From: a virus
DNA length: 20,806 nucleotides
Direction: 5' to 3' (one strand)
IMG/VR virus record: IMGVR_UViG_3300009141_000007
Location: 1 to 20,806 of that record
The translations under genes were made by a program, and so were the position numbers. This document shows, in pieces, positions 1 to 20,806 of the stretch (the stretch's first letter is position 1; every line of letters starts with the position of its first letter). The notes beneath the pieces were generated by a model. That model saw only the letters and a program-made list of their open reading frames with translations, ran no database searches and had not been told where the DNA came from.

Positions 1-1
1 A

Positions 2-1171
2 TTAGTAACTTATTCCTTACATACACCTTTGGGGGGTCAGTCAGAACAAGAAAGAGTACATGCTTATCGTGTGTATAGGCAGTTAGGAGATAAAGATTCC
101 GATATTGTTTTTTTCGAGGAGACAGATCAAAGTTTACTTCTAGCTTGGCAAGATGCGTTCAAAGACGCTCCGGAGGGGTATGGTCCCATCCAAAGACTAA
201 GGGTTAATGAAGAAACAAAACAGATACTGCCAACCATAGTTATAGGGGACCGTGAGTTAATTGCTAGGCATTTATATCTAAAACAAGGCGCACCTAAAAA
301 GCACACCTTAAGTCCCGTAGTAGAAAAATATCTTGGATCAGATTACAAAAACAACAAACTAGTTAGGAAAGCTTTACTTGTTAATGGTAGAGATCTTCCG
401 GAAACGATGTCTTTTTCTTTTGGTGCTACAGATTCCGTTATAACAAAACTTGATATAACTAGTAATGAATCTTATTTGACAATGCTTAGAGATGCTCAGG
501 AAAGTATATTAAGTAATCTGCGTAAAAATAAATTTGAAAAGAAGTCTAATCCTACAAGACCAGAATCTATATTAGAACTTATTAATACAGAGACTAGTGA
601 GGGGTCATCGAGATCGGTCAAGGACGTACTCAAAGGATTAGTTTCTGGTTTTGTAGCTGATGAGGAAACAAGACTCAAGAGAATATTAGTAACTTCAGAC
701 GAGATAACCTCAGACTTGCTAACTCCAGCAATACTAGATAAGTTTAAAAGATTGCATGTAAACGCTACAGTAGAAACTTTGCCATTATTTCAATATAGTG
801 GGTACAAGTTACTGGAACAAAAAGTAAAGTTTAACTTTAATGAGGTTCCTATATTTAGAAGTAAAGGAGAAAAGCTAGCCTCATCCTTTTATTCTGGCAC
901 TTATCAAATATTAGGATATAGCCATAATATTAGTTCAAAAGAACTAACATCAACGTTTACTTTAATGTCTATTCTCGATAAGGAGGATGTTGAAGCTATC
1001 TTAGAAGACGAGTCAGTATTCGGTGATGCCGACAAGGAGAGGCTATATAATATATTTAATGACTACCTTAAGACAGAGATACTTAAGAATCCGAACATCA
1101 TAACACCAGAAAATGTTTTTGGTGTTTTAGGCGAAGAGCAGAAAAACATAGTTAACCCCGGTCTTTTTTAA
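2..1171 (+). CDS. Baseplate hub protein, gp27/gpD-like (5'-truncated)
   Basis: This reading frame is open to the left edge of the window: nine codons before the TTG at 29 are free of stops, so the true start lies outside and the TTG is not a credible start. About 389 residues are visible. The best functional clue is near the C-terminus (about 887-970), where the protein reads F-Y-S-G-T-Y-Q-I-L-G-Y-S-H-N-I and then a T-S-T-F-T-L-M-S strand. This 'G-x-Y-x-V-x-x-x-x-H-x-I ... F-x-T-x-x-x-L' pattern is typical of the last beta-domain of tail hub proteins such as gp27, P2 gpD and Mu gp44. The next gene, one base away, encodes a spike protein, which is the usual hub-spike pairing. Such hubs form a trimer that joins the tail tube to the spike. 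The middle of the protein is charged and not recognisable. Family placement is inferred from this motif and the context. Confidence 0.7.
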   Translation, partial: LVTYSLHTPLGGQSEQERVHAYRVYRQLGDKDSDIVFFEETDQSLLLAWQDAFKDAPEGYGPIQRLRVNEETKQILPTIVIGDRELIARHLYLKQGAPKKHTLSPVVEKYLGSDYKNNKLVRKALLVNGRDLPETMSFSFGATDSVITKLDITSNESYLTMLRDAQESILSNLRKNKFEKKSNPTRPESILELINTETSEGSSRSVKDVLKGLVSGFVADEETRLKRILVTSDEITSDLLTPAILDKFKRLHVNATVETLPLFQYSGYKLLEQKVKFNFNEVPIFRSKGEKLASSFYSGTYQILGYSHNISSKELTSTFTLMSILDKEDVEAILEDESVFGDADKERLYNIFNDYLKTEILKNPNIITPENVFGVLGEEQKNIVNPGLF

Positions 1172-2170: not shown

Positions 2171-2173
2171 AAA

Positions 2174-5100
2174 ATGGCAAGCAGTGAAAGCATTTCTGGA
2201 GATTTAGGAAAAGCAGTTGATGGTATTGATGGTGCTAGTGATTTCCTAGACGATGCATCTAAAACTATTAGCGACCCAGTAGGAGCATTAGCAGAACAGC
2301 ACGGAATACCTCCGTGTCTGTTAAAGCTAGGTAAGCAAGTATTAAGTAAATTGTCAAGCTCCATACTAGGAGGAATCTCTGCTTCTATGATAGGTGGTTC
2401 AGAGAAGTCTCAAAACTGGTTACAAAGATTCACTGCTTGGGTAGCTAATGTGGGTGGTTTTTTTGAAACTCCAACAGAACAGGGGACCTCTTGGTTAGAG
2501 TTAGATCTTCCCGGATTCGGGGCGAGCTTGTCAGATCTAGCTGGTGCCTTTGATGCGGTAAGCGATTTAGCCGACGATGTTTCGGATGCTTTAAAGTGTA
2601 TAAAAGACTTTCATGATTCTTTAAATCCACCGAAATCTTCTCTTTCCGAGGAAAGCATAAGAGCTTCCTTTAGCCCAGCGATGAACGCTAGAGCAGATCT
2701 CCATAGAGAGTTATTAGCCGCTATTGATGATTCTCTGTCAGATATTAACGATATTTTAGAGGAGAGGAGACTAGATCCTAGCTTAGAGCCGACACTAGGG
2801 TCTGACGATCCCGGATTAGATGAGGAAGTGTTTAGGCTTGTGTATGGTCCTCCTTTGTCTCAGAGAGGTCAATACACTCTAACTAGTGATGGCTTGTACT
2901 ACGACTCACAAACAAGTGGATTAGACCCTATTAACTTAGCCATTTCTGGCACTGTAGCTCCCGGAGATGTGTGGAAGTACGACTACGATCCAAACTTAGG
3001 TGGGCGAGGAGATTCCGTTAGCCTAAGAGCGTTAGAAGTATTTAAGGACAATATCTTTGATATTAACATTATTGATGATAGTGCAGGATTACAGAAATTC
3101 TACAACGGAGACACACCTCTCCAGATCCTAATACAACAAAGAGATAAACAACTTTCAGACTTATCCGGAGTACTAGTAGAATTTCAGCAGTCTTACGGTG
3201 ATGATTCTCAGATAACTAAAAACCACAGAGAGTCTATAATTACTGCTGCATCTAAGCATAATTTTGGCATTGATAAAAGAAAAAAACAGATCGAGGTTTA
3301 TGTAAAGGTTCCTACTCTGTACGGAGAAAATCCTGTAGTATCTCCCGGTAATGTCCCAATAAACGACTTCTCTCTTTTAGAGGAGTTAAATGTTTCCGTA
3401 GATCTAGAGAAACAAAAATCTCTAACGTTCAAACAAGGCGAAGTTAATGGTATCGTATTACCGATTAATCCTACCTTTGTTGCACCTACCGAAAAGGCAC
3501 CTACAGTAAGTTATAACCACTTAAACGTCCCTAATGTAGGGGTAGAGAGTATTACTAACGAATCAACATCGTCTGCGCCAACATTGTCCTTAGTTGATGG
3601 AATCTCTACAGAAGGTCTTGTAGCTATTTACAACTTCTTGGAAACTTCTAGAACTACCCCTTCGAGTTTAGAGTTTGCTGTTACAAACTCAGCAGGATCA
3701 AACAAGTACAACAACGCTCAACTAGCTGCTGCGAATGCTAAAGATGTTTTCAGGAAGGGTTTAGGAATTCCTTACTTGCAAGGGATTGCTAAAAACAAAT
3801 CAACAGATGTTACTTCTGCATCTGGTATGGGATCATTCTATAAACTACCAGATACTAAAGAGTTCCGAGAACTTACTTACAACAAAGAAGGATTTACTGT
3901 AGAGTTCTGGGCTCACGTTCCAGACTTGACGAGTTCTTCCGCTTGGGTTGATGGGGATTTATCCTCACTTACTAAGTGTGTTTTAGCTAGTGAGAATGTT
4001 GGGTCTAAAGAGAACTTTAAACCCCTTGACAATTTTGGCAATCTTAGAGATTTAGATTACTTAGAGTTAGACAGAGGAGATCAGTTTGTACAGGGTCTTA
4101 TAATAGGGTTTACTAGGGATAGGAGAATAACTCAAGACGCTGGCTACAGTAACCTAAACGAAGATAACTCTTCTGCTAATACAAAGTTCTTTATAGCACC
4201 AACACAATCTAGAGATCTTTCGAGTGCGTCTTGGATTAATAGTAGTGATTGTTTACAAGACACGACTTACTTAGGACACTCTGTAGACCTTAACACTACC
4301 ACAAATGGAAAGTCCTTTGGTGGAGTTTCAAGTGAGTTTGTATTGTGTACTATAACCGTGGATCCTGCCGAAGACTCCATTAGATTTTACGCAGATTCTG
4401 AGCTTATATCTGAAACAACCGTAACGGAAAGTTTTGGGCTAGCTAAAAAAGAGCCTTTAAACCTACCTAGTAGGTATATGAATAACAGTTTTGAGTACTC
4501 AAAAGATACTACAGATGCTCCGAGTACTTTACACGAAGGACCAAAACTAAACAACTTTTACACACCTTGGATTGTAGGGGGAGGCTATACGGATGGTATG
4601 GCTAACCACAATAACTTTTTAGGTGGAGACAGGGGTGGTAATACTAGCCCACTAAACGGCCATATCGGCAGTATGAAGTTCTACTCAAGAGCTATATCGG
4701 GAGAAGAGATTATTAGTAATTACAACACACAGAAAAGATTTTTCAAAGATATTGATTTAGATAAATCTTTATCTGTTACTGCTAAGTTTATTGATCAGTA
4801 CTATGGACCTCCTAACGAGGAGTACACCACGGCTCATCTTTTTGATTTTTACGAAGCCAAAGACAAACTGCCCGGAGGAAACCCTACCTATATTCAGTTC
4901 TATCCCGGAGGTGGAATTGGTGGTAGTAAAGCGGACTTTGCTGACACTTCAATTAAAGACTTTATAGATAATGGTATAAACGTAGTGGCTATAAACTACA
5001 GACTACTTAATACTACTGGAGAGTTAGCGGATGCTAACACATTCCCCATTAAGTATCCTTGGATGATTGCAGGAGAAGGGTTCGGATCCTCCAACGACTC

Positions 5101-6685
5101 CAGTGCTGCAATGCTTCCCATTAACGACAATACAAAACCACTTTTAACTTTATCTGGGGGTCCTGAAACAACAAACTTCAAATCTAGTTGGCAGGATGCT
5201 GCGAGAATTATTCAACATCTTAAGTATAACCACCGAAAGTACGGTGTAGACAAAAGTAAGATTATTGTAGGAGGTTCCTCTTTCGGAGCAGTTATCGCTA
5301 ACTGGGTTACGTGGGCACCTGATTTCGCAGCAACTAAATCTCAAACGAATGATCCTGTATTATGGGAATCCACTGAGGTGTATGCTGGTGTATTTGGAGC
5401 TACTGCTTTTAGTGTAGAAAACTTTTACAGAGTAGAGAGCTTTGTAGATGCTAACGCTAAGGGTTATGGAAACTCAGGAGGAAAAACTATCTATGATATT
5501 TCTGGCTCAGTTTATGTGCCTAAAGGAACTGTCGGAGAATCTTATGAAGTAGCATCTCCTACCTCTGGAACAGACTACGAGCCCGGATTTAAGAGTGCTC
5601 AGCTTGAAGATCTTGAAGACAAAACCAAATATGCACTAGGAACACTCCTTCAAAATAGAGACATTAGGGTTGGTGTAGCTACTACGTATAATACTTACGA
5701 TGATGTAGAAAACTTCTCGGATTGGAGTTCTATTCCGGGACTTAAAGCCAACCACGAACAACTTAACATGGATTGGAGAGCTAGGGTTTATTGGAGTGGG
5801 GATAGGCACTCAGTCTCAGCAGGGGACTTTGGAGATCCAACTTTTGGTTTGGATCATCTAAAGTTTGGTAAGCCAGAAAATGAAAATATCCCTGCTCTAT
5901 ATCGAGCAGGTACTATGAGTACGTCTGCTGCTAACTTAGAAGCTATATCTGATTGGAAGGTAGTATTAAGTGAAGATGCTCTAACAACATTCAGTTCTAC
6001 CTTTGGTGTAGACATATTAACGTTCTTACCAGATACTTCTAGTTTGAATGACTACTATAACGCTAGCGCTACTACAGTAGTCAACGGTATCCCGCTTTCA
6101 GCTTACCAAACTATCGTCTCAAACACACCTCAAGTAAGCGCAGTCCTTGATTTTAGTGGTTTTAATTTTGGTCCTCCGAATGCAGGAAGAGAAAATGAGT
6201 GGGACGTTAGTAATATAAATATTAATCATGGTGGGTCTGGTAAAGTTATTAACCCTTTTGCAAACATTGACCTTAGTGGACCCAGTGGAAAAATACAGGA
6301 CTCTTCCGCTGTTGGTCTTGGTGGGTATTGGAATGATAGGTGGGTTACTAGAGATGTTCACGATGCTGCGTTTAGTATACAAGCAGCGGAAAAGCTAAAG
6401 ACTGCTTACTCATCAGAAACCCACCAATTACATACATCATGTATTCATACTAACCCTGAAGTGTACATAAGACCCGGATACTTATCTGATTTAGAGTCTG
6501 CTCTTTTATCTGTACCTCCTACAAATAGCTTAGGAGAACCTAACACGGAAACCTTTCAGATCTTGAGTGAGAGAGAGAATGTGAATTGGGTGATTGAAGT
6601 TTTAGCTAGAGACATAGATTATTTTGCTGATAAAGTTGGAACCTTAGCTGTCCTACCAGACGGACCAGACAAAATAGTAACATAG
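2174..6685 (+). CDS. Large tail-associated protein with LamG-like and alpha/beta-hydrolase (carbohydrate-esterase type) regions
   Basis: This 1503-residue protein starts at an ATG with a GGAG site. Residues 1 to about 230 are Asp/Ser-rich with amphipathic helices and are probably an attachment region. Residues about 481-855 look like a concanavalin/LamG sandwich: G-L-V-A-I-Y-N-F at 481-488, G-F-T-V-E-F-W at 573-579, and a closing G-H-I-G-S-M-K-F-Y-S-R-A-I-S block from 829. Residues about 895-1480 look like an alpha/beta-hydrolase: oxyanion-type Y-P-G-G-G at 910-914, a V-V-A-I-N-Y-R strand, and the nucleophile elbow G-S-S-F-G at 1034-1038 (Ser1036). The elbow is preceded by a Y-G-V-D-K-S-K-I-I-V-G strand and followed by D-P-V-L-W-E-S-T, as in sugar-esterase/carboxylesterase relatives. 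Asp1394 or Asp1397 and one of His1417, 1420 or 1425 are candidate triad partners. A long insertion (about 1070-1390) separates the elbow from them. It sits between spike and wedge genes, so it is probably a virion enzyme acting on surface glycans. Substrate and activity are inference. Confidence 0.7.
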   Translation: MASSESISGDLGKAVDGIDGASDFLDDASKTISDPVGALAEQHGIPPCLLKLGKQVLSKLSSSILGGISASMIGGSEKSQNWLQRFTAWVANVGGFFETPTEQGTSWLELDLPGFGASLSDLAGAFDAVSDLADDVSDALKCIKDFHDSLNPPKSSLSEESIRASFSPAMNARADLHRELLAAIDDSLSDINDILEERRLDPSLEPTLGSDDPGLDEEVFRLVYGPPLSQRGQYTLTSDGLYYDSQTSGLDPINLAISGTVAPGDVWKYDYDPNLGGRGDSVSLRALEVFKDNIFDINIIDDSAGLQKFYNGDTPLQILIQQRDKQLSDLSGVLVEFQQSYGDDSQITKNHRESIITAASKHNFGIDKRKKQIEVYVKVPTLYGENPVVSPGNVPINDFSLLEELNVSVDLEKQKSLTFKQGEVNGIVLPINPTFVAPTEKAPTVSYNHLNVPNVGVESITNESTSSAPTLSLVDGISTEGLVAIYNFLETSRTTPSSLEFAVTNSAGSNKYNNAQLAAANAKDVFRKGLGIPYLQGIAKNKSTDVTSASGMGSFYKLPDTKEFRELTYNKEGFTVEFWAHVPDLTSSSAWVDGDLSSLTKCVLASENVGSKENFKPLDNFGNLRDLDYLELDRGDQFVQGLIIGFTRDRRITQDAGYSNLNEDNSSANTKFFIAPTQSRDLSSASWINSSDCLQDTTYLGHSVDLNTTTNGKSFGGVSSEFVLCTITVDPAEDSIRFYADSELISETTVTESFGLAKKEPLNLPSRYMNNSFEYSKDTTDAPSTLHEGPKLNNFYTPWIVGGGYTDGMANHNNFLGGDRGGNTSPLNGHIGSMKFYSRAISGEEIISNYNTQKRFFKDIDLDKSLSVTAKFIDQYYGPPNEEYTTAHLFDFYEAKDKLPGGNPTYIQFYPGGGIGGSKADFADTSIKDFIDNGINVVAINYRLLNTTGELADANTFPIKYPWMIAGEGFGSSNDSSAAMLPINDNTKPLLTLSGGPETTNFKSSWQDAARIIQHLKYNHRKYGVDKSKIIVGGSSFGAVIANWVTWAPDFAATKSQTNDPVLWESTEVYAGVFGATAFSVENFYRVESFVDANAKGYGNSGGKTIYDISGSVYVPKGTVGESYEVASPTSGTDYEPGFKSAQLEDLEDKTKYALGTLLQNRDIRVGVATTYNTYDDVENFSDWSSIPGLKANHEQLNMDWRARVYWSGDRHSVSAGDFGDPTFGLDHLKFGKPENENIPALYRAGTMSTSAANLEAISDWKVVLSEDALTTFSSTFGVDILTFLPDTSSLNDYYNASATTVVNGIPLSAYQTIVSNTPQVSAVLDFSGFNFGPPNAGRENEWDVSNININHGGSGKVINPFANIDLSGPSGKIQDSSAVGLGGYWNDRWVTRDVHDAAFSIQAAEKLKTAYSSETHQLHTSCIHTNPEVYIRPGYLSDLESALLSVPPTNSLGEPNTETFQILSERENVNWVIEVLARDIDYFADKVGTLAVLPDGPDKIVT

Positions 6686-6698
6686 CACTATATAAGAT

Positions 6699-6703: not shown

Positions 6704-6710
6704 TTTAACT

Positions 6711-7178
6711 ATGGCAACAAATCAAACAGTAACGGTTTATGGAGGACAACCAACACAACCGAATAAAGCACAAGCAACATCCAAAAAGGATAGATTTGTT
6801 GGACTTAACTTCCCTTTAGGATCAAGAAAAGAGGTAGGAGGGTATTTCTCTAGAACTACCGATGTAACCTCGGTAAGAGCAGCAATAAAACAACTTACGC
6901 AGACAGAAAGAGGGGAGAGGGTAATGCTTCCAGATTTCGGAGTTAGCTTAAGGAGGTTCTTATTTCAGCCTTTAGACGAGAATACATTTGATGGTATTAA
7001 GAGAGAAGTATCTACTTCTTTTAAAAAGTATATAATTGGAGCAACTTTACTAAAACTCTCTGTCTTCCCACTGAATATAACTGGTCCTAGTGGAGGAAAC
7101 TCCTTAAAATTAATATTACTCTTTAGTTTAGATAAAGAGGATTCAATCATATCAGAAGTAGAGGTTAAATTAATTTAA
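6711..7178 (+). CDS. Baseplate wedge protein, gp25-like (GPW/gp25 family)
   Basis: The 155-residue product carries the signature of the small wedge protein family that includes T4 gp25, P2 gpW and type VI secretion TssE. After a polar N-terminal tail it has an S-V-R-A-A-I-K-Q-L segment, then T-E-R-G-E-R-V-M-L-P-D-F-G at 65-77 and L-R-R-F-L-F at 80-85. This equals the family's 'T-x-x-G-E-R-x-x-x-P-x-F-G ... L-x-x-x-L-F' core. The rest is an alternating helix and strand pattern ending in S-E-V-E-V-K-L-I. In characterised phages this protein helps join the wedge to the hub and to the first sheath ring. It is followed, with a TAATG overlap, by the gp6-like gene, the standard partner. The N-terminal 40 residues, rich in Gln, Thr and Lys, are longer than in the minimal family members. 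Confidence 0.9.
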   Translation: MATNQTVTVYGGQPTQPNKAQATSKKDRFVGLNFPLGSRKEVGGYFSRTTDVTSVRAAIKQLTQTERGERVMLPDFGVSLRRFLFQPLDENTFDGIKREVSTSFKKYIIGATLLKLSVFPLNITGPSGGNSLKLILLFSLDKEDSIISEVEVKLI

Positions 7179-8764
7179 TGAAATTTACAACAAATATTAG
7201 CTCAGACTTTCTAAAGTTAGCTAAAATGCCAGAGAAGAGTAAACCTTCTCTTATTAACTTTGCCGCAACAGATTTTGATACGTTGAAGGCTGAATTAATC
7301 TCCTACGTTAAAGCAGTTTATCCTACTGACTACAATTACTTTGCAGAGTCAGATTTAGGTATGATGCTTTTAGAGCTTGTAGCGTATATGGGGTCAGTAA
7401 ACTCTATGAAGGTTGACATGTTAGCTAACGAAAGCTTTTTAGAAACTGCCGTACAGAGAGAAAGTGTAAAAAAGCTATTAGACTTAGTTGGAGTTAACCT
7501 CAAAGGACCTTTATCTTCAGCCGCTGACATAGAAGTTACGTTTGATAATGCTTCCACTGAGTATACTATTACCCCAGAGAACAGAGTTTTTACTACCACT
7601 TCTCCTGAGGATGGAGGACAAGTTACTTTTACTTTGTATAAAGTAGTAGATGGTAAAGTTGATACTGCTAATAGTAACGGAAATATAAACTTGTACGATA
7701 TAGAAGCAGACCCTTCTGTAGATGCCTTAAACCCTGTAGGCTTTAGCAATTTAGCAGTACAGGAAGGATCCTTAGTTTCTGAGTCTGGCACATTTGCTTC
7801 TACAGAAGGAGTAAAGACAATCTCTCTAGCTAATACACCTGTGGTTGAAGGAAGTATTCAAGTTTTTATAACCTCAGATAACGCATCTATTGATGGGGCA
7901 TTTACAGAAGTTCCTAGTATCTTCCAAGCCTCTGGAATATCAGACAAGGTATTTGAGGTTGTTAGTGATAGTGATTTTAGATCAACCGTTGTTTTTGGCG
8001 AAGGCACTGTTTCAGTATCTCCGGGAGTATCTGATACTTACTTTGTAACATATAGAGTAGGGGGAGGAGTTAGAGGTAATGTTATATCTAATGCTATTAC
8101 AGGATCCTTAAATACAGTTGAAGGTCCTACTGGGCAAATCACCAACCCGACACCAGCAACAGGGGGAGCTAACGCAGAAACAATAGAACACGCTAAAAGG
8201 TGGGGTCCTCTAACCTTCGCTAGACAAGACAGGGTAGTAACTATAGAAGATTACGTATCTTTTTCTAATAACTTTGTAAGCGATTTTGGAACAGTAGGAA
8301 AAGCCACAGCAACTACTAGAAAAGCATACTCTTCAGGAAACGTGATTGATTTATATATCCTTGAAAAGGCATCTGACAATCAGCTACAAAAAGCCACTCC
8401 AAACTTTAAGATCAATCTTCTTGAGAGTCTAGACACTAAGAAGATGATTACAGATGAGGTAGTAGTTTCTGATGGATTAATTAGAACCTTAGATTTGGTT
8501 GTAACTATTCGATTGGATAAGAAGCTAGAGCCTAACGAGTCTGTAATAATGTCTAAAGTAAGGGACAAGATTTTAGCTTTCTTAAGTATTGATAATCGAG
8601 ATATGGGTGACAACCTAAACCTAGCAGACCTAAACAGATCTATTTTCGAGGTAGAAGAGATTAGATTCTCTAACATTGATAACCTCTCAGAAGATGTTGA
8701 TGTTGAATTTAACGAGATTATACAACTAAACAACCTCACTATTAGAGCGGATTACTTAGAGTAA
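7178..8764 (+). CDS. Baseplate wedge protein, gp6/gpJ-like (Baseplate_J family)
   Basis: The 528-residue product fits the gp6/gpJ/TssF wedge family. The N-terminus has D-F-D-T-L-K (32-37), then G-M-M-L-L-E-L-V-A-Y (61-70), and an N-E-S-F-L-E-T-A-V-Q-R-E-S-V block (84-97) leading to L-V-G-V. This is the classic helical start of the family. Around residues 337-359 it has H-A-K-R-W-G-P and the A-R-Q-D-R-V-V-T-I-E-D-Y motif found at the central domain of gpJ-type proteins. The C-terminal part is beta-rich. In known baseplates two copies of this protein pair with one gp7/gpI to form the iris-like core bundle. Its start codon overlaps the stop of the gp25-like gene; a possible GAGG at 7161-7164 is rather far from the start, so coupled translation is likely. 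Confidence 0.88.
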   Translation: MKFTTNISSDFLKLAKMPEKSKPSLINFAATDFDTLKAELISYVKAVYPTDYNYFAESDLGMMLLELVAYMGSVNSMKVDMLANESFLETAVQRESVKKLLDLVGVNLKGPLSSAADIEVTFDNASTEYTITPENRVFTTTSPEDGGQVTFTLYKVVDGKVDTANSNGNINLYDIEADPSVDALNPVGFSNLAVQEGSLVSESGTFASTEGVKTISLANTPVVEGSIQVFITSDNASIDGAFTEVPSIFQASGISDKVFEVVSDSDFRSTVVFGEGTVSVSPGVSDTYFVTYRVGGGVRGNVISNAITGSLNTVEGPTGQITNPTPATGGANAETIEHAKRWGPLTFARQDRVVTIEDYVSFSNNFVSDFGTVGKATATTRKAYSSGNVIDLYILEKASDNQLQKATPNFKINLLESLDTKKMITDEVVVSDGLIRTLDLVVTIRLDKKLEPNESVIMSKVRDKILAFLSIDNRDMGDNLNLADLNRSIFEVEEIRFSNIDNLSEDVDVEFNEIIQLNNLTIRADYLE

Positions 8765-8780
8765 CACATCCATATAAAAA

Positions 8781-11700
8781 ATGAGTAAGTATCCTCAGAA
8801 CAAGAGAAAATATACTAAACGCAACTATGTTGAAGCGGTAGAGATAATCACGCCTAATACCTACTTAGACGAAGATTTAAGTATTAATGGTAAAGAGTTA
8901 AACCCTACATCTGAAATAATAAACTCCCACCTAAGTATAGCAAACTCCATCAGTACATACTTAGATATTTCCGGAGTAGCAGGTACGTCTACTAGTTCTA
9001 TCTCAACGTTAGAAGGGATATCTAAGTATTTTGTAAAGCAGAATAACCTTACAAAAGTAACTACTAACTCTTTTAACACTAACATCTTAAACCCTCTAGG
9101 GTACTCCTTACAAAGCTATGAAACAAGTTCAGATTTTAGTACGTTTCTTTCAGGAACTATTCTCCCTCTTGTGCAGAATGAACCTGAATCCCTAGAGAGT
9201 AATATTTCAACGCTCAGTGCTTACACAGATAACTCTGATGCTAGCTCAGTACATAACTATCTAATAGAAAACCTTGGTTGGTTTTATTTCCTGAATACTT
9301 CAGCAGACGGTAGCCTCGCTTACAACCCATCGTCTTTCTTATTAGATAGTTTTAACACTCTCTACAAAGGTCAATCTCTTGATCTTGTAGATGGAATAAA
9401 GGGTTTAACTAATTACATTTGGAGGAATTTAGAAACGTGTTCTACTTTTGTAGATATACCTTCAAACTTTGTTGCTGGCACAACACCGTACACTAGTGGA
9501 ACACAGCAGTTAGATAAACTTGAAACTATGCTGGACATAGTTTATTCACCTCTCCAGATGAACGAGTCAGATTTCGCTGTTAAAGAGGCGTTTGATGACT
9601 TTATTAGCGCCGATATGGTCTTAGACGATTATGTCTCTAAAGGACCACACAGGAAGATAAACACGGCATTAGGCTATGCTTTTGCGGACATTGCTGGGGA
9701 GTCTGAGAGTCTTGGGTTGTTGTATGATATTCAGAGTGCTCCGACAAACTTACTCCCTTATATAGCTAAACTTATTGGGTGGGAGTTGTTAGGTCCTGAG
9801 AGTGACAAGTGGAGACATCAACTAATGTCAGCAGTTGATATCTACAAAAGTAAAGGTACAAAGTCTGCCCTTCAGAAGGCAGTCAACATGGTTTTATCTA
9901 ACTCTGATTTGGATGTATCTAGTGGGATAACAGAACTTTGGGAATCATACGTGCCTCAACTAATTTGGTACGCTCTAGCAACAGAATCTAGCTACTTTAG
10001 GAGTCTTTCTGATTGGTCGCCCGATATTGCTAACAAGGCAGGTATTGCTACCTACAATGACTATAGCTTAGAAACTAATATTAAGATTGTTGTTGATTAT
10101 ATTATTCTGGATATGTACAAAGCATACCCAGAAATGTTCTCATTTTCAGACGAAGTATTCCCTGTAAGTAGGTTCTACAAGCTAGACTCTTTTGGTAATC
10201 AGAAGGAGTTCTACGCAGTTGGACACGACCCAAAAGCTAAGACTTTCTTATACATTCCTGAAGACTCTGAGGAGTTTGACCTCTCAAGAAAGGATGCTAT
10301 TACAGCAGGTAAGAAATCAGCTTGGGAAGCTGCAAAGGCTTTAGGTCCTCTCGGATACGGAATATACATGACAGGTTCTAAGTATTCTGCGGAAGAGGAT
10401 TACTTACTACATAAAGGTGATCCATTCTTTGTATTCAACTTTAGAGGTCATGAAAACTTCCCTATTCCTCCTTTTGAAGAGGTTAAGTACTATGAAGAGT
10501 GGAGACTCAGTACTCAACTACTATCTTACCTAGAAAGCAGACTAAAGTGTTTTGGTGTGTCTGATACTTTTGCTTCTCAACTAAAATCCTATATTGAGTC
10601 TGCATCCTTGACTTGTAATACTAACCTACAATCACTTAATACTATATTACTACTATTTGATAAGCCTCAGAATGCCCCAAACTTTGATAGAGTAATATCT
10701 AATAGTACAACCTATCAAAAAAATCTTCTAGATTTGTGGTGTGGTAAATCCTCTCATATCTTTTTAGATTTTGGGGCAGAAGACTTTGATTTTACATCTA
10801 CTAATATTGATAGTGGAGGTAAGTTTGGTTTGCGTAATATTTCTAATGTAGTTAAAAAGTTTTCCCCTGCTCACGCAATACCTAAGATAAACTTAAACTC
10901 CAGTGCGACTGACTATCTTAACTCTTCTAGTATACCTTTTGATTATATTGGTTTAGACAGCGATGACAATGCTGGAGGGTACTCCTCTGAAACTATGTTA
11001 CTAAACGGAGAAGTTTCTGGAGCTAATGTCAGGGCTATAACTGGAGGAAACACATTTAAGCGTTACAGTGAAGGGTCTAACAAGAGTAACCTTGATGAGA
11101 TGGGAACCCTAGACAGCACAAACTTTATATCTCCTACTGCTACTAACGATATAGGTGATGTTTTACTTGGTGATTTAGGTAGAAAATCTTTCAGAAGAAG
11201 GAACAATAGATTTACTTTGCCAAAGGAAGGGTATTACGATAGGACAGGATTTAACGGTCCTGTTTCTTGGGATCCAAGCGCATTAGAAAACTCTACTCTA
11301 TCTTCACAAGGAGAATTAACCTTAGGGTATATTCCTTCTTCTCTATCGTTCGAACCTGTTGTTGACGGACAAGCTTCGGGTATATGGCATAAGTGCGAAA
11401 ACTTGGACTCTACTTCTACCTTTTACGGGGTTGACACTAGCAACACATTCCCCTACAGAGGATTAAACCCTCTAGGGTCAAACGCATTCACAGTATCTGC
11501 TCACGATTGGTATGTAGATAGAGGACAAACCCCCGGAATTTATGGGGTTATGCATAAAGTGTTAGAAGAAAAGGCCAAACACGATGCAGAGAAGAGTATT
11601 TCTAGTGCTGGACAATTAGTATGGAATTACCTAAATAAGTATAACTATCTTGATGCTGATCCTACAGACATTAGCGGTCTTGGTTGGGCACACAGTGATA

Positions 11701-14036
11701 TTACTACTGGAGTAACAGACAATCTTAGAGCTATTGATGGTACTGAAACAGCAGACCTTCTCCAAACCTTAGCTGGAACCGACGTTGACGGTGTACCTTA
11801 TTACTACACAAAACTCCAAACTAATATCTATAAAGACGATCCAGAAGATTACTTCACGTTTAGAACCTACATAAACGTTGGAGACGGAACCGCTCCCGAA
11901 GACAGACCAGTAGTATTTGATTTTAGTATTACATATAAACTGATTCCGGGGTCTTTCTACGCACTTGGCGTATCCGAGTTTACTTTGAATTATACTGTAT
12001 CTGCTAATCCGTTTACTGGGGAGAAAACAACGATAGCATATGGTCCACATACCTCTAACTTATTTGGTGATGTAGGGTTTACCAAAGTAGCAGATTATAA
12101 ATACCCTGACGATAATTGGCATAGGCTTCAACTTAGTATAGACCCTTTCGATTCTACCTACTTGCAAAGTAACCCCGGATTATTAGATACTGTATTATAC
12201 ACTACACTAACAATAAAGATTAGGTCTGACAATAATGAATCTGATCCTGTATCTCAAGACAGAAACTTCCATATCTGGGGAACCCAGCTTTGGAGAAAGA
12301 GTGAAGAGAAAGAGTATTTAATATATGAAAATCCTTACTTATCAAATAGTTACTGGTATGATCCCGTAACTAGTTTGGCTAACAAATCTATAAGTGAAGG
12401 TTTAGTAGGTAATACCTTTGATTCTTATAGAAACTTCGCCTTCGGTACGGATCTACACAAAGTATTTAAGGAGTACACATCTTTTTTTAATACACACGGA
12501 CTAGGTAAGAATGCTGTAGACGCAGAAGGATTTAACATATTGGCTCATACTTTTGGAAAAGGTTTGTACAATATTGGTTTCCAACTAGACGGATCTGCTG
12601 CTACTACAAGTGAAGGTACTTATAGAACAACTGATTTAAGTAGTGCTGTACCTATCTCTTATGGTGATGGTTCTGGGGTATTCTCTGTTTGTGCCGTAGA
12701 GGAGTATGGAGCAGGATACGCATCAGGAACTTACATTGCTAGTTCGGCTGGAGATACAGTAATTCCTCTAACAGGAACCTTCACAGAAGGTGATGATTAC
12801 AACGCTGAGTTTAGAAACGCTCATATTTTAAGCGGAGTAGAGTTTGTAGATACTTCAGGTGCTTCTCCTAGTAACGCTTTCTACCTTTACGACATACCTC
12901 CTACTCAGAGCATAGATGCTAAGAATCAATATTACCAAGACAATCCTTTAGTAAAATGTAAATCTGTTGGTGGTTTCCCTAGGATTAGATTTGACCTAAA
13001 CTCTTACGGAGGAAATAAACTAGTGCCTAACCACCAGTTTAACTTCTCTGTAAAAGCTTTAGTTGGCACTGATAACTCTCCTGAGTTGGGGGTTGGAGTT
13101 ATGGGTGTTTGGATTCACACTAAATCAAAGGGAGGTAAGGTCTGGTCTTGGGCACCTAAAACTCCTTTCGAGACTTACGTACCTACCTATGTACCTGCCT
13201 ACTTAGGTCCGGGAGATACTGTAGCAGATACTGTAGCAGGAACAGAAGAAGTTAAACCTAAGCTACCTAACCAACTTCCGGGTGGGTCATGGGTACTTTC
13301 TGAGGAGAGTGATTTAAGTAAGGATTTTGTAGTAAACACACTATCCTTTAAACATCAGTTCCATAAAGATCTTGTTGATTCTGACACTGTAGATGAGAAT
13401 ACTTGTTTGGGAAATATAGACAGTACTGAAGAGGTTACTGTTGATAAAAACGCTACTATAAAGAACTTCAATAAGTCTCACTTCTCTACTGCTAGTTTTG
13501 AGTTCGATACTAGGAATGAGACAGACTATAATAATTCAGAGTACCTTAAAGTTATCCCAGTTCCAGAGGACTTCTACAGTCTGTCTGAGCTAGTTCATGA
13601 TGTAAATACGGAGTACGTAATAGAAATATTCTTTATGAATAACTCAAACCCTTCTAAGTTTTTACTTATTGATGATGTAACCTTTACTGACACTACATTG
13701 AACTCAATGGCTTCTATCCCAACTGGATACAATGCTTATGAGTCTAGTAACCCCATGATCCGAGAAGCAAACCAAAAGAGATATAAGTTATCTCCTGAAG
13801 AACTAAGAGAAGTATTGAAGTATTTCTCTGGACTTGCTGGCTTTGGATCTGGTGTATACGCTACAGAAGTAGCCTCTAGGGTTGCATCTCAAACATCTGG
13901 TACTATGGATGTTAGTGGAGGAAGTAGACTTTCTTACAGAGATGCCCCTATTACTAAAAACCTATCCGATGCTAGATCAGACGGAGAAGTAGACGATAAT
14001 ACTTTAGCAATTTTAGAGATTGAGGTAGAAAACTAA
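8781..14036 (+). CDS. Giant baseplate wedge protein, gp7/gpI-like, with extra beta-sandwich modules
   Basis: This 1751-residue protein follows the gp6-like gene, where P2 gpI or T4 gp7 would be. Residues about 235-400 carry the tail-protein-I signature: L-L-P-Y-I-A-K-L-I-G-W (324-334), W344, then D-I-Y-K-S-K-G-T-K-S-A-L (353-364, with KGT at 358-360). The rest is far larger than P2 gpI (under 200 residues) or T4 gp7 (about 1030). Residues 801-895 form a distinctive block with a basic R-K-S-F-R-R-R-N-N-R start, an R-T-G-F-N-G-P turn and an F-P-Y-R-G-L end. Residues about 1019-1175 resemble a carbohydrate-binding sandwich (D-N-W-H-R-L-Q-L, H-I-W-G-T-Q-L-W). A second beta-rich region lies at about 1390-1670. 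The linker has tandem repeats. No strong ribosome binding site precedes the ATG. The wedge assignment rests on the gpI motif and gene order; binding roles for the other modules are inference. Confidence 0.72.
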   Translation: MSKYPQNKRKYTKRNYVEAVEIITPNTYLDEDLSINGKELNPTSEIINSHLSIANSISTYLDISGVAGTSTSSISTLEGISKYFVKQNNLTKVTTNSFNTNILNPLGYSLQSYETSSDFSTFLSGTILPLVQNEPESLESNISTLSAYTDNSDASSVHNYLIENLGWFYFLNTSADGSLAYNPSSFLLDSFNTLYKGQSLDLVDGIKGLTNYIWRNLETCSTFVDIPSNFVAGTTPYTSGTQQLDKLETMLDIVYSPLQMNESDFAVKEAFDDFISADMVLDDYVSKGPHRKINTALGYAFADIAGESESLGLLYDIQSAPTNLLPYIAKLIGWELLGPESDKWRHQLMSAVDIYKSKGTKSALQKAVNMVLSNSDLDVSSGITELWESYVPQLIWYALATESSYFRSLSDWSPDIANKAGIATYNDYSLETNIKIVVDYIILDMYKAYPEMFSFSDEVFPVSRFYKLDSFGNQKEFYAVGHDPKAKTFLYIPEDSEEFDLSRKDAITAGKKSAWEAAKALGPLGYGIYMTGSKYSAEEDYLLHKGDPFFVFNFRGHENFPIPPFEEVKYYEEWRLSTQLLSYLESRLKCFGVSDTFASQLKSYIESASLTCNTNLQSLNTILLLFDKPQNAPNFDRVISNSTTYQKNLLDLWCGKSSHIFLDFGAEDFDFTSTNIDSGGKFGLRNISNVVKKFSPAHAIPKINLNSSATDYLNSSSIPFDYIGLDSDDNAGGYSSETMLLNGEVSGANVRAITGGNTFKRYSEGSNKSNLDEMGTLDSTNFISPTATNDIGDVLLGDLGRKSFRRRNNRFTLPKEGYYDRTGFNGPVSWDPSALENSTLSSQGELTLGYIPSSLSFEPVVDGQASGIWHKCENLDSTSTFYGVDTSNTFPYRGLNPLGSNAFTVSAHDWYVDRGQTPGIYGVMHKVLEEKAKHDAEKSISSAGQLVWNYLNKYNYLDADPTDISGLGWAHSDITTGVTDNLRAIDGTETADLLQTLAGTDVDGVPYYYTKLQTNIYKDDPEDYFTFRTYINVGDGTAPEDRPVVFDFSITYKLIPGSFYALGVSEFTLNYTVSANPFTGEKTTIAYGPHTSNLFGDVGFTKVADYKYPDDNWHRLQLSIDPFDSTYLQSNPGLLDTVLYTTLTIKIRSDNNESDPVSQDRNFHIWGTQLWRKSEEKEYLIYENPYLSNSYWYDPVTSLANKSISEGLVGNTFDSYRNFAFGTDLHKVFKEYTSFFNTHGLGKNAVDAEGFNILAHTFGKGLYNIGFQLDGSAATTSEGTYRTTDLSSAVPISYGDGSGVFSVCAVEEYGAGYASGTYIASSAGDTVIPLTGTFTEGDDYNAEFRNAHILSGVEFVDTSGASPSNAFYLYDIPPTQSIDAKNQYYQDNPLVKCKSVGGFPRIRFDLNSYGGNKLVPNHQFNFSVKALVGTDNSPELGVGVMGVWIHTKSKGGKVWSWAPKTPFETYVPTYVPAYLGPGDTVADTVAGTEEVKPKLPNQLPGGSWVLSEESDLSKDFVVNTLSFKHQFHKDLVDSDTVDENTCLGNIDSTEEVTVDKNATIKNFNKSHFSTASFEFDTRNETDYNNSEYLKVIPVPEDFYSLSELVHDVNTEYVIEIFFMNNSNPSKFLLIDDVTFTDTTLNSMASIPTGYNAYESSNPMIREANQKRYKLSPEELREVLKYFSGLAGFGSGVYATEVASRVASQTSGTMDVSGGSRLSYRDAPITKNLSDARSDGEVDDNTLAILEIEVEN
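13176..13199 (+). repeat. Two imperfect 12-bp tandem units encoding YVPT-YVPA
   Basis: Two consecutive 12-bp units inside the giant wedge gene encode Y-V-P-T and Y-V-P-A (residues 1466-1473), followed by another Tyr. They differ by a few bases. This is probably an extended proline-containing linker between beta-domains. Confidence 0.8.
13215..13238 (+). repeat. Two perfect 12-bp tandem units encoding DTVA-DTVA
   Basis: The 12-base unit GATACTGTAGCA occurs twice in a row and encodes D-T-V-A twice (residues 1479-1486). It lies 15 bases after the YVP repeat. Because the copies are identical, it looks like a recent slippage or duplication in the same linker. Confidence 0.9.
14022..14026 (+). promoter_or_regulatory. 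Ribosome binding site for the first adaptor-like gene
   Basis: GAGGT lies nine bases before the ATG at 14036, within the end of the giant wedge gene. It supports a start that overlaps the previous stop codon. Confidence 0.55.
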
Positions 14037-15762: not shown

Positions 15763-15765
15763 ACT

Positions 15766-18700
15766 ATGAGTTTTTCAGCAACAGACATATACACCACTAG
15801 CGGCTCAGCTAGTCTTTACAATAACTGGACTTCGGAAGTAACGAAGTTTGACACAAGCTCATTCTATAACTGGGAACAAGACAACCTTCCTGTCTACGAT
15901 CTAGAGGAAAGGACTCATCTTCTATGGGAGAAGGCAGGATTCCCAACGTCTGCTCTTCCCGGAATGGCTCTAGCAGTATCGGGAGATGCTACACCAGCAG
16001 ACTTACTATCTAATACAAATCTCTTTGTAGATGTTAGCTCATGTATAGCCGCTTTACCTGAAGTTCTTAGATATCCTGTAGTTATCGAGGTAGCCAATTA
16101 TGGTGACCTAGGTAAGATGGAGTTGCACAATATTAAGATGGCTGAGGCTGGATCCTTGGAGATTATCAATAGAGGTTTTGCTAAGAAGTATTCATCCGTC
16201 ACTCAAGACACGGGAACAATAAGGTATAATAGAACTACTGAGTCTCATAGTGAAATTACTCAAGTCTCATCTTTAGACTTAAGTTCCTCATGGAGTGATT
16301 CCTCGGCCCTTTCTTTGGGTGCTTCGGTCTTATCTAGCACATCTCCTATGGACACCAGATTTGGTGTTGATATGTATTCTTTTTCTAAGTACCCACCATC
16401 TTACAGGATAGGAACTATAACTGCTAGTCTAAAAAATTCCTCATACTTATCCCCCACTTTCTTATTAACGGAAAGCTTTAGTACAACACCGTATGAAACA
16501 TTAGGAACTGACCTAACAGTTACTTCTCTCGATATTTCTGCTACGGATCCTTATACCCTACTCCCGTATGATACAACCCGAGGACAGGAACTAGGAGGAC
16601 TGATCGATAGCACTTCTTGGCAAGGTATTCACTACCTTAACTATCTTAGCACTATTAGTGTTAAGAACTGTGACGGACCAATCTATATCAGAGGGTTCAA
16701 CGTAGACGGAGAGCATACAGACGCTGGCTTAGGATCAGACGTAGGTGTACTTATTCAAAACTCTGATGTGTTCCTAGAGGACACCTCGGTAAGTAGATGT
16801 AATAAGCACGGCATCAAGGCAGATAATTCTAACGTTGTTTTATCTAGAGCTAATAATGTTTATAGGATTTACGAGAGAGACTCTTCCACTACTAGAGTTG
16901 CTGGCGTTGGTGAAGGTATAACTGCCAATAATAGTACTATTACTCTACAAGGAGGAAACAACGTACAAGCTATTGGTGACGATGATGGACTAGTAGTAAC
17001 CAGATGTACTACTGGAATAAAGTTAAACAACTCCACACTTATTCAGGACTTAGTTAGAACTACCTTCGCTGATGAAACTACAGGTGGATCATTAGTGGTA
17101 GAGAGAAACACCTTAGCTGGTATCGTAGCCCACAGTTCTACCTTGAATACTAAAGGATTACTTGATGTTTATCATAACGAAGAAGGTATTGAACTACACA
17201 ACTCAGACTTAACCTACGACCAACTATGTGTTGAGGGTAACTTAGGAGTCGGTCTAAAGGCTGTTGGATCTACAGTATCTTGGGATGGAGCAAAAAGCTT
17301 TACTCTTACTGGACAAACCACTAGAAACCAAGTAGACTTTAAAAAGAATGGACAAGATCTTTTTATTGATAGAGTAAGCTCCTTCGGATTCAAAAGATCA
17401 GACTCTATGAATGATACTTTTGGACATATGAGTTTCCTTTCAAGTCATGGTCAGATTGAGCTTGATTCCCATATCGCTGCGACACCCTCGATTTCTGTAC
17501 AAGGAAACTCAGAAGCGGAGTTCTTACACGCTAACCTCTATCCTAGAGGATTAGATGATGTTCACACTATAGCGGACTCTACCACATACGGTCTTGCTGC
17601 AAGAGCATCTAACAATTCTGAGATTGATTTCTATGGGACTGGTTCTGGCTGCACACTAGTTGCTGGAGTTCCGTCCTACACCAGACAAAACAAAGTCGCA
17701 GGACTTCACGCAACAAATGGTTCTAAGATTGGACTCCACGGTCCTACAGTTATTGCACAGTTTGGTGTAGATGTTTTAGCAGAGAACAACTCTATTGTAG
17801 AAATTTGCCCTGCGTACAAGAAAGGGTCTGGCATTTATGATTCTAGTGGCTTTGATCTTAACGATACTAAAAACCATACATCTGTAGAGCTTCACTCAAC
17901 TAGGTCATGTGTTGTAGTAGATAAAAACTCTACGTTTGTAGCCAAAGACTTAGGAGACTATGCTAACTTCTGGGGAGAAGATGCTATCGCTGATTCTGGT
18001 TATAGGTCAGACGATATGGGAACTAGTGCGTTTACATCTCACGGATCCTTACAGTTTTTCCCTAACCCTCAAGATGAAGTCTTATGTACTTCATCATCTG
18101 GAAGTTTTACTCCTTCTGAGGATGCATTAGGTGATACAGTAGTAACGAAAGCTAAGTTTACTGCTTTAGGAAAACAAAACCAGTATTTAGATTCAACTTC
18201 GGAATACGTAGAGAGTACTGACTACGGCAATATAAGTGCAATGTCATTAGGCGGAATGTGTGTTAGAGCACTAGGCGATAGTCTAGTAGAAGTAGATAAC
18301 GTTCACTTTCCTATCGGCACTGCGGACAATGCTCTAAATAAAGCTTGGTTCGATGCTAGTGGAGATACCTGCCATCGTCTAATGATTTGGAATATTGCAG
18401 ATCAATCTAAACTAAGGGCTTCTAACTTATCTGTAAGCGGTTCCTATCCCGGAGATGCTGGATATTACGGACCTAGTGCCATCTATCTAGACTCTAATGG
18501 AAATACAGCCTCTGGTGCGCCAGCAAGTACTCCAAACACTGGAAAATTAAGTATTTTGGACTCTTACGGAGCAGGATCTTCTGTATTCGTATTAGAGCCC
18601 GGAACTTCGTACAACACTCCATTCAACAACTATTACCCTCATAGCGTGTCGGACGAAGCTATTTATCCAGACATTTCCGAAGGGGGATTAGTTGTTAGTT

Positions 18701-19236
18701 CAGCAGCTACTTACCTGTACGGAGCTTCTGGGGTTGGTATACAGGCTAACAGAGGAATTTTTAGACTTTACTTTTCAGTATCCCCTGAGGCTAAGTATTT
18801 AACAGCCATAAACCAAAACGAAGAAGTAGGAATACCTCATCAACTATTCGCACAAGGTTATAACTTCTCAGGAACACTATCTTCTCTAGTCTTAGACGGT
18901 GCATCAGATTCCTTAGCTGTCAGTGCTTTATCTCAGAAACTTCTTAAATTAAATGATTCTGACGGAGACGGAATCTCAGACACCTTAGGAACCTCAGGAT
19001 TCTACTACTGTTCTGAATTTGTTGAAGAGAACCCGACACAATGTATGTTGGATGAATCAGCTTCTGATTCTTTTGCAAATGCTAAAAACTGTGCCCTTGG
19101 TGGTTCAGGAAGACCTAAAAAGGTAACAATCTATAGATCAAGACTAGATACAAATAGAGCAAGTGATGCGTATCCGGGCGACAACATCATTGGAATTAAA
19201 TCATCTAACGTATTCAATCTTGAGAGGGACAACTAA
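15766..19236 (+). CDS. Beta-helix tail fibre/tailspike protein
   Basis: The 1156-residue product has an N-terminal segment with F-Y-N-W-E-Q-D-N-L-P-V-Y-D-L-E-E (33-48) that recurs in the next gene and is probably the baseplate-docking part. Residues about 300-730 look like a right-handed parallel beta-helix (pectate-lyase-like fold). Short strands alternate with turns, and an N-S-x-hydrophobic motif appears about twelve times (for example at 332, 354, 389, 422, 617, 675 and 721). Residues 1064-1072, D-S-D-G-D-G-I-S-D, form a probable calcium-binding loop. The C-terminal 80 residues contain several Cys. The start lies three bases after the previous stop, with no clear ribosome binding site. 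This architecture suits receptor binding, with or without polysaccharide lyase or hydrolase activity. I cannot point to catalytic residues, so depolymerase activity remains open. Confidence 0.72.
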   Translation: MSFSATDIYTTSGSASLYNNWTSEVTKFDTSSFYNWEQDNLPVYDLEERTHLLWEKAGFPTSALPGMALAVSGDATPADLLSNTNLFVDVSSCIAALPEVLRYPVVIEVANYGDLGKMELHNIKMAEAGSLEIINRGFAKKYSSVTQDTGTIRYNRTTESHSEITQVSSLDLSSSWSDSSALSLGASVLSSTSPMDTRFGVDMYSFSKYPPSYRIGTITASLKNSSYLSPTFLLTESFSTTPYETLGTDLTVTSLDISATDPYTLLPYDTTRGQELGGLIDSTSWQGIHYLNYLSTISVKNCDGPIYIRGFNVDGEHTDAGLGSDVGVLIQNSDVFLEDTSVSRCNKHGIKADNSNVVLSRANNVYRIYERDSSTTRVAGVGEGITANNSTITLQGGNNVQAIGDDDGLVVTRCTTGIKLNNSTLIQDLVRTTFADETTGGSLVVERNTLAGIVAHSSTLNTKGLLDVYHNEEGIELHNSDLTYDQLCVEGNLGVGLKAVGSTVSWDGAKSFTLTGQTTRNQVDFKKNGQDLFIDRVSSFGFKRSDSMNDTFGHMSFLSSHGQIELDSHIAATPSISVQGNSEAEFLHANLYPRGLDDVHTIADSTTYGLAARASNNSEIDFYGTGSGCTLVAGVPSYTRQNKVAGLHATNGSKIGLHGPTVIAQFGVDVLAENNSIVEICPAYKKGSGIYDSSGFDLNDTKNHTSVELHSTRSCVVVDKNSTFVAKDLGDYANFWGEDAIADSGYRSDDMGTSAFTSHGSLQFFPNPQDEVLCTSSSGSFTPSEDALGDTVVTKAKFTALGKQNQYLDSTSEYVESTDYGNISAMSLGGMCVRALGDSLVEVDNVHFPIGTADNALNKAWFDASGDTCHRLMIWNIADQSKLRASNLSVSGSYPGDAGYYGPSAIYLDSNGNTASGAPASTPNTGKLSILDSYGAGSSVFVLEPGTSYNTPFNNYYPHSVSDEAIYPDISEGGLVVSSAATYLYGASGVGIQANRGIFRLYFSVSPEAKYLTAINQNEEVGIPHQLFAQGYNFSGTLSSLVLDGASDSLAVSALSQKLLKLNDSDGDGISDTLGTSGFYYCSEFVEENPTQCMLDESASDSFANAKNCALGGSGRPKKVTIYRSRLDTNRASDAYPGDNIIGIKSSNVFNLERDN
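16756..17940 (+). repeat. Degenerate N-S-x-hydrophobic protein repeat of the beta-helix
   Basis: About twelve copies of a short motif, usually N-N-S or H/Q/K-N-S followed by any residue and then I, V, L or F, run from residue 331 to 725 of the fibre protein. Spacing is mostly 22-23 or 33-36 residues, with one 80-residue gap between the copies near 501 and 581. This is consistent with stacked beta-helix coils and an asparagine ladder. The DNA copies are not identical, so the repeat is ancient and structural rather than recent. Confidence 0.65.
19224..19228 (+). promoter_or_regulatory. Ribosome binding site for the last fibre gene
   Basis: GAGGG lies seven bases before the ATG at 19236, within the end of the beta-helix gene. 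It supports the overlapping start. Confidence 0.6.
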
Positions 19237-20806
19237 TGGCCGAAAATAATTTTAACGAAAGTTCATACAAATTCACAGATCCGATCCGCAAATTTAAAGC
19301 AAACGATCCTTACTATTGGGAAGTAGATAACATTCCCCTATCTCAGCTAGAAGAAAACATTAAATGGCTTAAAGACCAACTCAACCAAAAAGAGCCTGAG
19401 GATGATCAGACATTTTCTGTTAATAGATCGGACATAAACGAACTTAAGCCTTACTCTACAGGAGAAGATAGGTTTGTTAAAGTTAAACCCGGAAGATACA
19501 CGGCTAGAATCAACGATGCATCTACTAAAACCCAACTACAAGTACTAACTCAAGTACTAGGTAAGGCTTTAGCAGAAACAGATGCTTGGTCTGCAAGCAC
19601 CTTGATATCAAACTCAGAACTATTATCCGCTTTGGAGAAGTTCAAATCTACTCCTGAGAGTACAGAAGCTTTAGGGATGACGGGACTTGAGGAGAGATCT
19701 TTTACTTGGTCTGTAAGGACTGTTGACACCGTAGGAAATCAGGCGGGATCTCAAACTAGCCCACAAGAATATACAGGGTTTTCGGGAGCAGGAAAAGCAG
19801 GTCCTTTTCTATCTTCACAGGCTATGTTATGGGCTAAGTCTACTAATGATTCTACCTCAAACTACATCATTAAGACTTATGATCCTTTAGATGCTACTGT
19901 TGGATTCTCTAAACTTCCTTTAGCAGAGAACCACTTCATTAAGTACTGGAGAGGTATTGCCAGAACTGCTATTGTAGATGTTCCAGAAGAGTTGGAGATT
20001 CAGGTTCCTGAGTTTGATCTTGATGACTTCAACTACGTAGACGAGGCAGGTACTACTCAAAGTGTTCCTAACGTAAAAAGTAGAATTGACCTAGTATATC
20101 TCTACAGTAAGCCTGTAGACGCTAACCGTTCAAATATTTTTAAAGGGGGTACAGTAGAATCTATTACTAAACCTCAATTAGGCATTGTTCGTGGAGCAGG
20201 AATTGGAGCCTCGTTTAAAGAAGGTAATATAGAGCAAGAATACTTACCAGTGCTTTCGTATGATTCTGAAGGAAACCCTAAAATACTATCTAATCCTTCC
20301 GACTCTAAATCCGCAACAGGAGGATTTATATCCGCACAAGGTAATGATATTGAGAAAGATATGAGAGGATCATTCCCGTCTCCAGACGATCTTATGAACC
20401 TAGCTCCATTACTTTCTGAAGAGTTGCAATCTTCCGATATTGAACTAGTAGGACAAAGTATCCTGCCTCTAGCCTATGTTTTTGTTACATCTACAGATTT
20501 GGTAGTCAATACTGGAGATGTTATTGATATTAGACCGTTTTTCAGAACTACTGAACTAGCATACAACGAGAGGTCTGGTTTGGCTGCTGCAATGCCTCAG
20601 ATATCTCTTGCTAACCCTGTTGTAGGTAAAGCGCAGCTAGATGATGCGGTCACGAAAACGCACAAAGAATTAATAAACTTGTTTGGTAAAGACAAGACAA
20701 ACAAAATTCAAACTGCTGCTATTGGGTACGTGTTTGGTGGGGGATACTTCGGACCTGAAGGTGTACTTATTAGTGAGGTGGCTGGAACAGATCACGGCCC
20801 TCTTGG
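19236..20806 (+). CDS. Second fibre/structural protein, 3'-truncated
   Basis: The frame opens at an ATG that overlaps the previous stop (TAATG) and stays open to the window edge, giving at least 523 residues. The N-terminus has Y-Y-W-E-V-D-N-I-P-L-S-Q-L-E-E (26-40), the same motif as at residues 34-48 of the beta-helix protein, followed by a short Lys/Gln-rich helix. Later regions include S-R-I-D-L-V-Y-L-Y-S-K-P-V-D and, from residue 430, I-D-I-R-P-F-F-R-T-T-E-L-A-Y-N-E-R-S-G. Both blocks look conserved rather than low-complexity, but I do not recognise the family. There is no signal peptide or membrane segment. The shared N-terminus and the position suggest a baseplate-attached fibre or fibre-base protein. 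The C-terminal domains, which would decide its function, lie beyond the window. Confidence 0.55.
   Translation, partial: MAENNFNESSYKFTDPIRKFKANDPYYWEVDNIPLSQLEENIKWLKDQLNQKEPEDDQTFSVNRSDINELKPYSTGEDRFVKVKPGRYTARINDASTKTQLQVLTQVLGKALAETDAWSASTLISNSELLSALEKFKSTPESTEALGMTGLEERSFTWSVRTVDTVGNQAGSQTSPQEYTGFSGAGKAGPFLSSQAMLWAKSTNDSTSNYIIKTYDPLDATVGFSKLPLAENHFIKYWRGIARTAIVDVPEELEIQVPEFDLDDFNYVDEAGTTQSVPNVKSRIDLVYLYSKPVDANRSNIFKGGTVESITKPQLGIVRGAGIGASFKEGNIEQEYLPVLSYDSEGNPKILSNPSDSKSATGGFISAQGNDIEKDMRGSFPSPDDLMNLAPLLSEELQSSDIELVGQSILPLAYVFVTSTDLVVNTGDVIDIRPFFRTTELAYNERSGLAAAMPQISLANPVVGKAQLDDAVTKTHKELINLFGKDKTNKIQTAAIGYVFGGGYFGPEGVLISEVAGTDHGPL

Follow-up and report, generated by a model that had tools for sequence, protein, structure and literature searches.

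Complete absence of the Type II word CCWGG from a phage tail-gene fragment, and erased restriction-site panels in its large uncultured relatives

Why should a stretch of phage DNA long enough to hold some twenty copies of a five-letter word hold none at all, and what does the loss say about the hosts in which its ancestors replicated? The window, by which we mean the whole stretch of DNA analysed here, is an entire public record of 20,806 bp (IMGVR_UViG_3300009141_000007) and a fragment of a phage genome; it is nearly all coding, on the + strand, and covers the tail/baseplate region of a contractile-tailed phage. Three of its genes are needed below:

6711..7178, + strand: gp25-like baseplate wedge gene (PF04965, 7.8e-8; phrog_261, 6.9e-11)
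7178..8764, + strand: gp6-like baseplate wedge gene (phrog_219, 1.1e-35), used as a query for relatives
8781..14036, + strand: gene for a 1751-aa tail protein with a Tail_P2_I domain, the query that yielded the nearest relatives, L110 and L111

Also among the tail genes, at 2174–6685, is a 1503-aa protein combining a BD-FAE (alpha/beta-hydrolase) domain with a laminin-G-like segment. Megablast found no DNA similar to the window among the phage-collection records, and a terminase search of GTDB genomes returned no host for the phage.

CCWGG and Pro-Gly codons in the window

String search finds no CCWGG in the window (CCTGG 0, CCAGG 0), against expectations of 18.5 from base composition, 20.5 from a maximal-order Markov model and 27.6 from a second-order one; synonymous-codon shuffles (n = 1000), which hold the proteins and the codon usage and composition constant, give 23.1 ± 3.0 with a minimum of 14. 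An earlier note, made by eye, had reported the word as missing where about 20 copies were due and had proposed the comparison with codon-shuffled and Markov models; on each of these points it was right. The word is likewise missing from two further, independent contigs of this phage (L002 and L007; 99.7–99.9% identity over 6.0 and 7.5 kb), so that an accident of assembly is not the cause.

The sister word CCSGG behaves in the opposite way: it occurs 21 times (CCCGG 15, CCGGG 6), against 8.9 ± 2.9 and a maximum of 18 in the same shuffles. The sites, all in codon phase 0 and located by string search and codon phase, are as follows:

1157..1161, +, CCCGG, Pro-Gly
2510..2514, +, CCCGG, Pro-Gly
2810..2814, +, CCCGG, Pro-Gly
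2960..2964, +, CCCGG, Pro-Gly
3344..3348, +, CCCGG, Pro-Gly
4871..4875, +, CCCGG, Pro-Gly
4904..4908, +, CCCGG, Pro-Gly
5582..5586, +, CCCGG, Pro-Gly
5735..5739, +, CCGGG, Pro-Gly
6473..6477, +, CCCGG, Pro-Gly
8021..8025, +, CCGGG, Pro-Gly; the sole such site of the gp6-like gene, aligned with CCTGGA in L110 and L111
11532..11536, +, CCCGG, Pro-Gly
11946..11950, +, CCGGG, Pro-Gly
12174..12178, +, CCCGG, Pro-Gly
13209..13213, +, CCGGG, Pro-Gly
13278..13282, +, CCGGG, Pro-Gly
15958..15962, +, CCCGG, Pro-Gly
18448..18452, +, CCCGG, Pro-Gly
18598..18602, +, CCCGG, Pro-Gly
19174..19178, +, CCGGG, Pro-Gly
19488..19492, +, CCCGG, Pro-Gly

Since Pro-Gly always spells CCNGG, the dipeptide is forced into CCC or CCG once CCWGG is forbidden: tabulating the proline codons that precede GGN gives 15 CCC, 6 CCG and no CCT or CCA, whereas CCC and CCG together make up merely 15% of proline codons elsewhere in the window. 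That all 21 CCSGG sites encode Pro-Gly, that proline is otherwise mostly CCT or CCA, and that the avoided word is CCWGG specifically and not CCNGG, codon choice making good the difference, had all been put forward in the earlier note; the counts bear this out. Avoidance extends to the NCC-TGG/AGG phase too, because none of the 65 TGG and 49 AGG codons of the window has an NCC codon ahead of it (0/114).

Rusinov et al. 2018 (PMC6286503) describe orthodox Type II sites as completely or almost completely eliminated (observed/expected <0.1) from dsDNA phages, in about one-tenth of viral genomes. By the same measure, with an expectation above 15, CCWGG is eliminated from the window (0 against 18.5–27.6), and the word, listed in Biopython/REBASE, is the site of a known orthodox Type II enzyme. 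Further words stand at zero, each weak evidence by itself in 20.8 kb: CGCG (0 of 7 expected), CAGCTC (0 of 8.5), GAGACC (0 of 7.6) and CTGCAG (0 of 4.8). We take CGCG, CAGCTC and GAGACC as hints of an erased panel like those of the large relatives described below, which 20.8 kb cannot prove. Some words are under-used and yet present, with AATT at 68 against 152 in the codon shuffle, CATG at 18 against 33 and GTSAC at 7 against 19.

Routes of site loss

Two causes had been offered for the missing word in the earlier note, restriction and methylation-driven C-to-T mutation. Under the second, a Dcm-like methylase would place 5-methylcytosine at CCWGG and deamination would turn the site into CTWGG or CCWAG; CCWGG is the classic Dcm site, and C-to-T loss would be directional. 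The enrichment of product words that the note had proposed as a check is absent, however, both in the window (76 against 71.1 ± 6.5, z 0.8) and in a 234-kb relative, G001 (320 against 308.4 ± 14.7, z 0.8). Deamination would, moreover, make proline CCW into leucine CTW and not into CCC or CCG, whereas Pro-Gly here is retained through third-base changes from T/A to C/G; and TTTAAA and ATTAAT, which contain no cytosine, are erased in relatives of the phage. We thus reject Dcm/Vsr deamination, an extremely improbable cause, on the flat product words and the swapped Pro-Gly codons, and of the two causes only restriction, with word specificity and the loss of Type II words across relatives in its favour, stands.

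The swap can be followed against L110 and L111, which at 65–75% protein identity are the nearest relatives and carry CCWGG. In all 12 comparisons of conserved Pro-Gly pairs made by codon alignment, CCT or CCA in these relatives is replaced by CCC or CCG in the window; some of the comparisons are one window position counted in both L110 and L111. The sites were therefore removed by synonymous change, as selection against CCWGG predicts. L111 is the mirror image of the window; it has no CCGG (0 of 12 expected) and spells every Pro-Gly proline CCT or CCA.

A reading of the pattern as selection against a Type II restriction site is well supported, and attack on the ancestors of the phage by a Type II enzyme cutting CCWGG, with erasure of whole panels of sites as a strategy of the group, is very probably the best explanation overall. 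On this reading the ancestors would have been attacked repeatedly, each surviving mutation that removed a site would have been favoured until no CCWGG remained, and removal would have been synonymous wherever the protein sequence allowed. We infer that cleavage by enzymes of the hosts was the selective agent, and such hosts would presumably carry enzymes of the EcoRII/BstNI type.

The earlier note had also suggested looking for a CCWGG methyltransferase in the phage. Among 49 related records no C5 methyltransferase (PF00145) scores above the cut-off, with control genomes scoring positive; N6/N4 methylases are found in just four of 32 related records, all four of which have CCWGG at the examined locus. 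A phage methyltransferase as protector is rejected on these results. Erasing a whole panel of Type II sites might replace protection by methylation, or add to it.

Other routes would give the same loss of CCWGG. In one, the phage encodes a CCWGG nuclease directed at host DNA and, having no sites, spares itself; large T4-like phages do degrade host DNA, and absent sites would serve as a mark of self and non-self without methylation. We regard this as very improbable, since the panels of G024 or G015 (see below) would demand dozens of nucleases, and the EcoRII-C nuclease domain (PF09019) is found in none of 32 related records, in a search whose control genomes gave no match either and are thus uninformative. 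In another, Dcm-type methylation of CCWGG is what is avoided, because Type IV or Type IIM enzymes of the next host cut methylated DNA. The same word would be expected to go, but this explains less simply the loss of many other, unrelated words, and avoidance is merely weak for modification-dependent enzymes (Rusinov et al. 2018, PMC6286503); we give it a slim chance at best.

Erased words across related phages

To place the window among its relatives, we turn to loci collected with its proteins and with the portal of G001, a 234,631-bp record that holds a gp6 relative (28% identical) and whose portal is 57% identical to that of a 595-kb uncultured phage; the G001 portal as query collected 78 loci. 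After deduplication, the gp6, tail-protein and portal searches together left 63 loci, in which all 4- and 5-mers and centre-degenerate 5-mers were surveyed, a zero being scored where the expectation was at least 8. In ten loci (L086–L089, L091–L095 and L101) the portal match stretches over ~3.7 kb instead of 2.5 kb, which points to an intron or intein within the gene.

Of 59 related contigs in which CCWGG could be tested, 25 have no copy at all; the remainder have 0.21–1.49 of the expected number, and no ratio falls between 0 and 0.21. Exact zeros are also seen for CGCG (28/43), GCGC (7/55), ACGT (6/61) and CASTG (2/57), with single cases of GGCC and CCGG; the recurrent ones, CGCG, CCWGG, GCGC, ACGT, CASTG and longer words containing them or GGCC, are all Type II sites. 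A portal tree with 51 rows requires nine or more changes of CCWGG state, an all-or-none turnover between relatives. That the CCWGG-free state simply descends from one shared ancestor is rejected on this count and on the presence of CCWGG in the nearest relatives of the window. Erased panels differ from lineage to lineage and turn over. In a 50-kb portion of the 595-kb uncultured huge phage (L016; LR756511.1:540000-589999), CCGG is absent where ~70 are expected, as are RGATCY, TGATCA, ATCGAT and other words.

In the larger records whole panels are missing. G001 has no CCWGG (~327 expected), no CGCG (148 expected) and none of 22 of its 62 testable hexamer palindromes; absences elsewhere amount to 30/64 in G020, 22/57 in G034, 33/53 in G008, 36/57 in G015 and 45/64 in G024, so that six large records (76–240 kb) lack 22–45 hexamer palindromes each, with fewer in smaller or other records (7/50 in G025, for example). 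In the 220 kb read of G024, ~45 distinct specificities of the Biopython REBASE list are at zero, among them degenerate sites (GDGCHC, RGATCY, YACGTR, CYCGRG) and non-palindromic Type IIS sites (CAGCTC, GAGACC, GAAGAGC). CAGCTC (AceIII) is absent from G020, G024, G015, G008, G025, L110 and the window, and GAGACC (BsaI) from several, a sign that erasure may extend to Type IIS sites. For comparison, 0–1 catalogued sites are erased in 50-kb stretches of T4, Flavobacterium phage immuto, phage G and phiKZ, and 7 in P-SSM2.

Searching bacterial genomes with gp6 brought up a further relative: a contig of 130.6 kb from the single-cell genome of Prochlorococcus sp. AG-409-P03, on which all ten window genes have matches, in conserved order, together with a Gp23 major capsid gene and a T4-type portal. 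It contains no ACGT (177 expected) and no CCGG (105 expected), and 28 of 62 hexamer palindromes with an expectation of at least 3 are at zero; in 80 kb of host contigs from the same assembly no testable site is missing (0/59).

Could causes other than restriction, such as compositional or codon bias, instability of palindromes or an assembly artefact, produce these patterns? The avoided words are mostly palindromic, as instability would have it. Palindromes with no enzyme are nevertheless retained: for the seven testable hexamer palindromes that have no entry in the Biopython REBASE list, 0 of 62 genome-word pairs are erased, against 221 of 469 for those with an enzyme, and among words with at least four A/T the figures are 0/55 and 53/219. 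The nominal p-values of this contrast are optimistic because the genomes are related, but its direction is clear: enzymes, not palindromicity, decide which words vanish. The codon shuffle of the window, with composition and protein kept, still calls for its 23.1 ± 3.0 copies of CCWGG, the bacterial contigs of the AG-409-P03 assembly are without erasure, and independent assemblies agree. We hold the probability of a non-restriction cause to be vanishingly small.

Precedents, the Pro-Gly limit and possible hosts

Avoidance of restriction sites in phages is already known, and the window, taken by itself, adds one more case of it. Phages T7 and T3 with respect to EcoRII, and staphylococcal phage K, which lacks GATC, carry few target sites for an enzyme of the host, or none; these cases concern single or few words in smaller genomes, against dozens in the large relatives here. 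The eliminations catalogued in PMC6286503, from dsDNA phages, are likewise losses of Type II sites, as for CCWGG in the window, but the related large phages, which are uncultured, lose 20–45 hexamer palindromes at once over 76–240 kb, with all-or-none turnover between relatives and with the Pro-Gly constraint. Like the nucleus shell and base modification of jumbo phages (PMC13282480), this would be a means for large genomes to evade DNA-targeting defence; unlike them, the protection would lie in the genomic text, C5 methyltransferases not being found. A text search of that 2026 review finds no mention of site erasure, and the scale in the related large phages is apparently undescribed.

The earlier note dealt with a single word in a single contig; the phenomenon involves dozens of words, affects many large phages and switches from one relative to the next. 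We lean, on balance, towards the broader proposition that, across a wide group of uncultured large and jumbo phages, heritable erasure of dozens of Type II words throughout the genome is a main strategy against restriction, with panels gained and lost over short evolutionary distances and each genome a ledger of the enzymes of its hosts. The finding points to some of the largest phages escaping the most common DNA defence of bacteria through a rewriting of the entire genome against dozens of enzymes at once; the erased panels could also aid host identification and enzyme discovery for uncultured phages.

The strategy has a limit that can be tested. As every CCN-GGN is either CCWGG or a CCSGG containing CCGG, no phage can drop both CCWGG and CCGG without losing Pro-Gly, and none of the records examined has lost both; if erasure is indeed the strategy, hosts with enzymes for both words could be escaped fully only by protein change. 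The window shows no shortage of Pro-Gly (21 against 22.9 expected). It stands at 0.52–0.81 of expectation in CCWGG-free large records and at 0.94–1.19 in relatives bearing both CCWGG and CCGG, values suggestive of a protein-level cost, although the reversed dipeptide Gly-Pro also varies among these records.

Long replication in hosts with a CCWGG system, as the earlier note had proposed, is plausible, but the AG-409-P03 phage cautions against reading hosts too directly from panels. In that cell a gene of the RE_SinI family adjoins a C5 methyltransferase (L201:852-2673), and the site of the system is presumably that of SinI, GGWCC. Host DNA under-uses this word (34 of 86 expected) and the phage contig does not (115 of 129), so that panels need not match the cell in which a phage is found: either the phage replicates poorly in that Prochlorococcus, or it escapes by being methylated, or it lost its sites in other hosts. 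Bloom-forming cyanobacteria, which reportedly have an unusual wealth of restriction systems (PMC8262939), are a candidate source of such restriction pressure. The AG-409-P03 phage contig itself (L189–L195, G049:C3) is deposited as host sequence.
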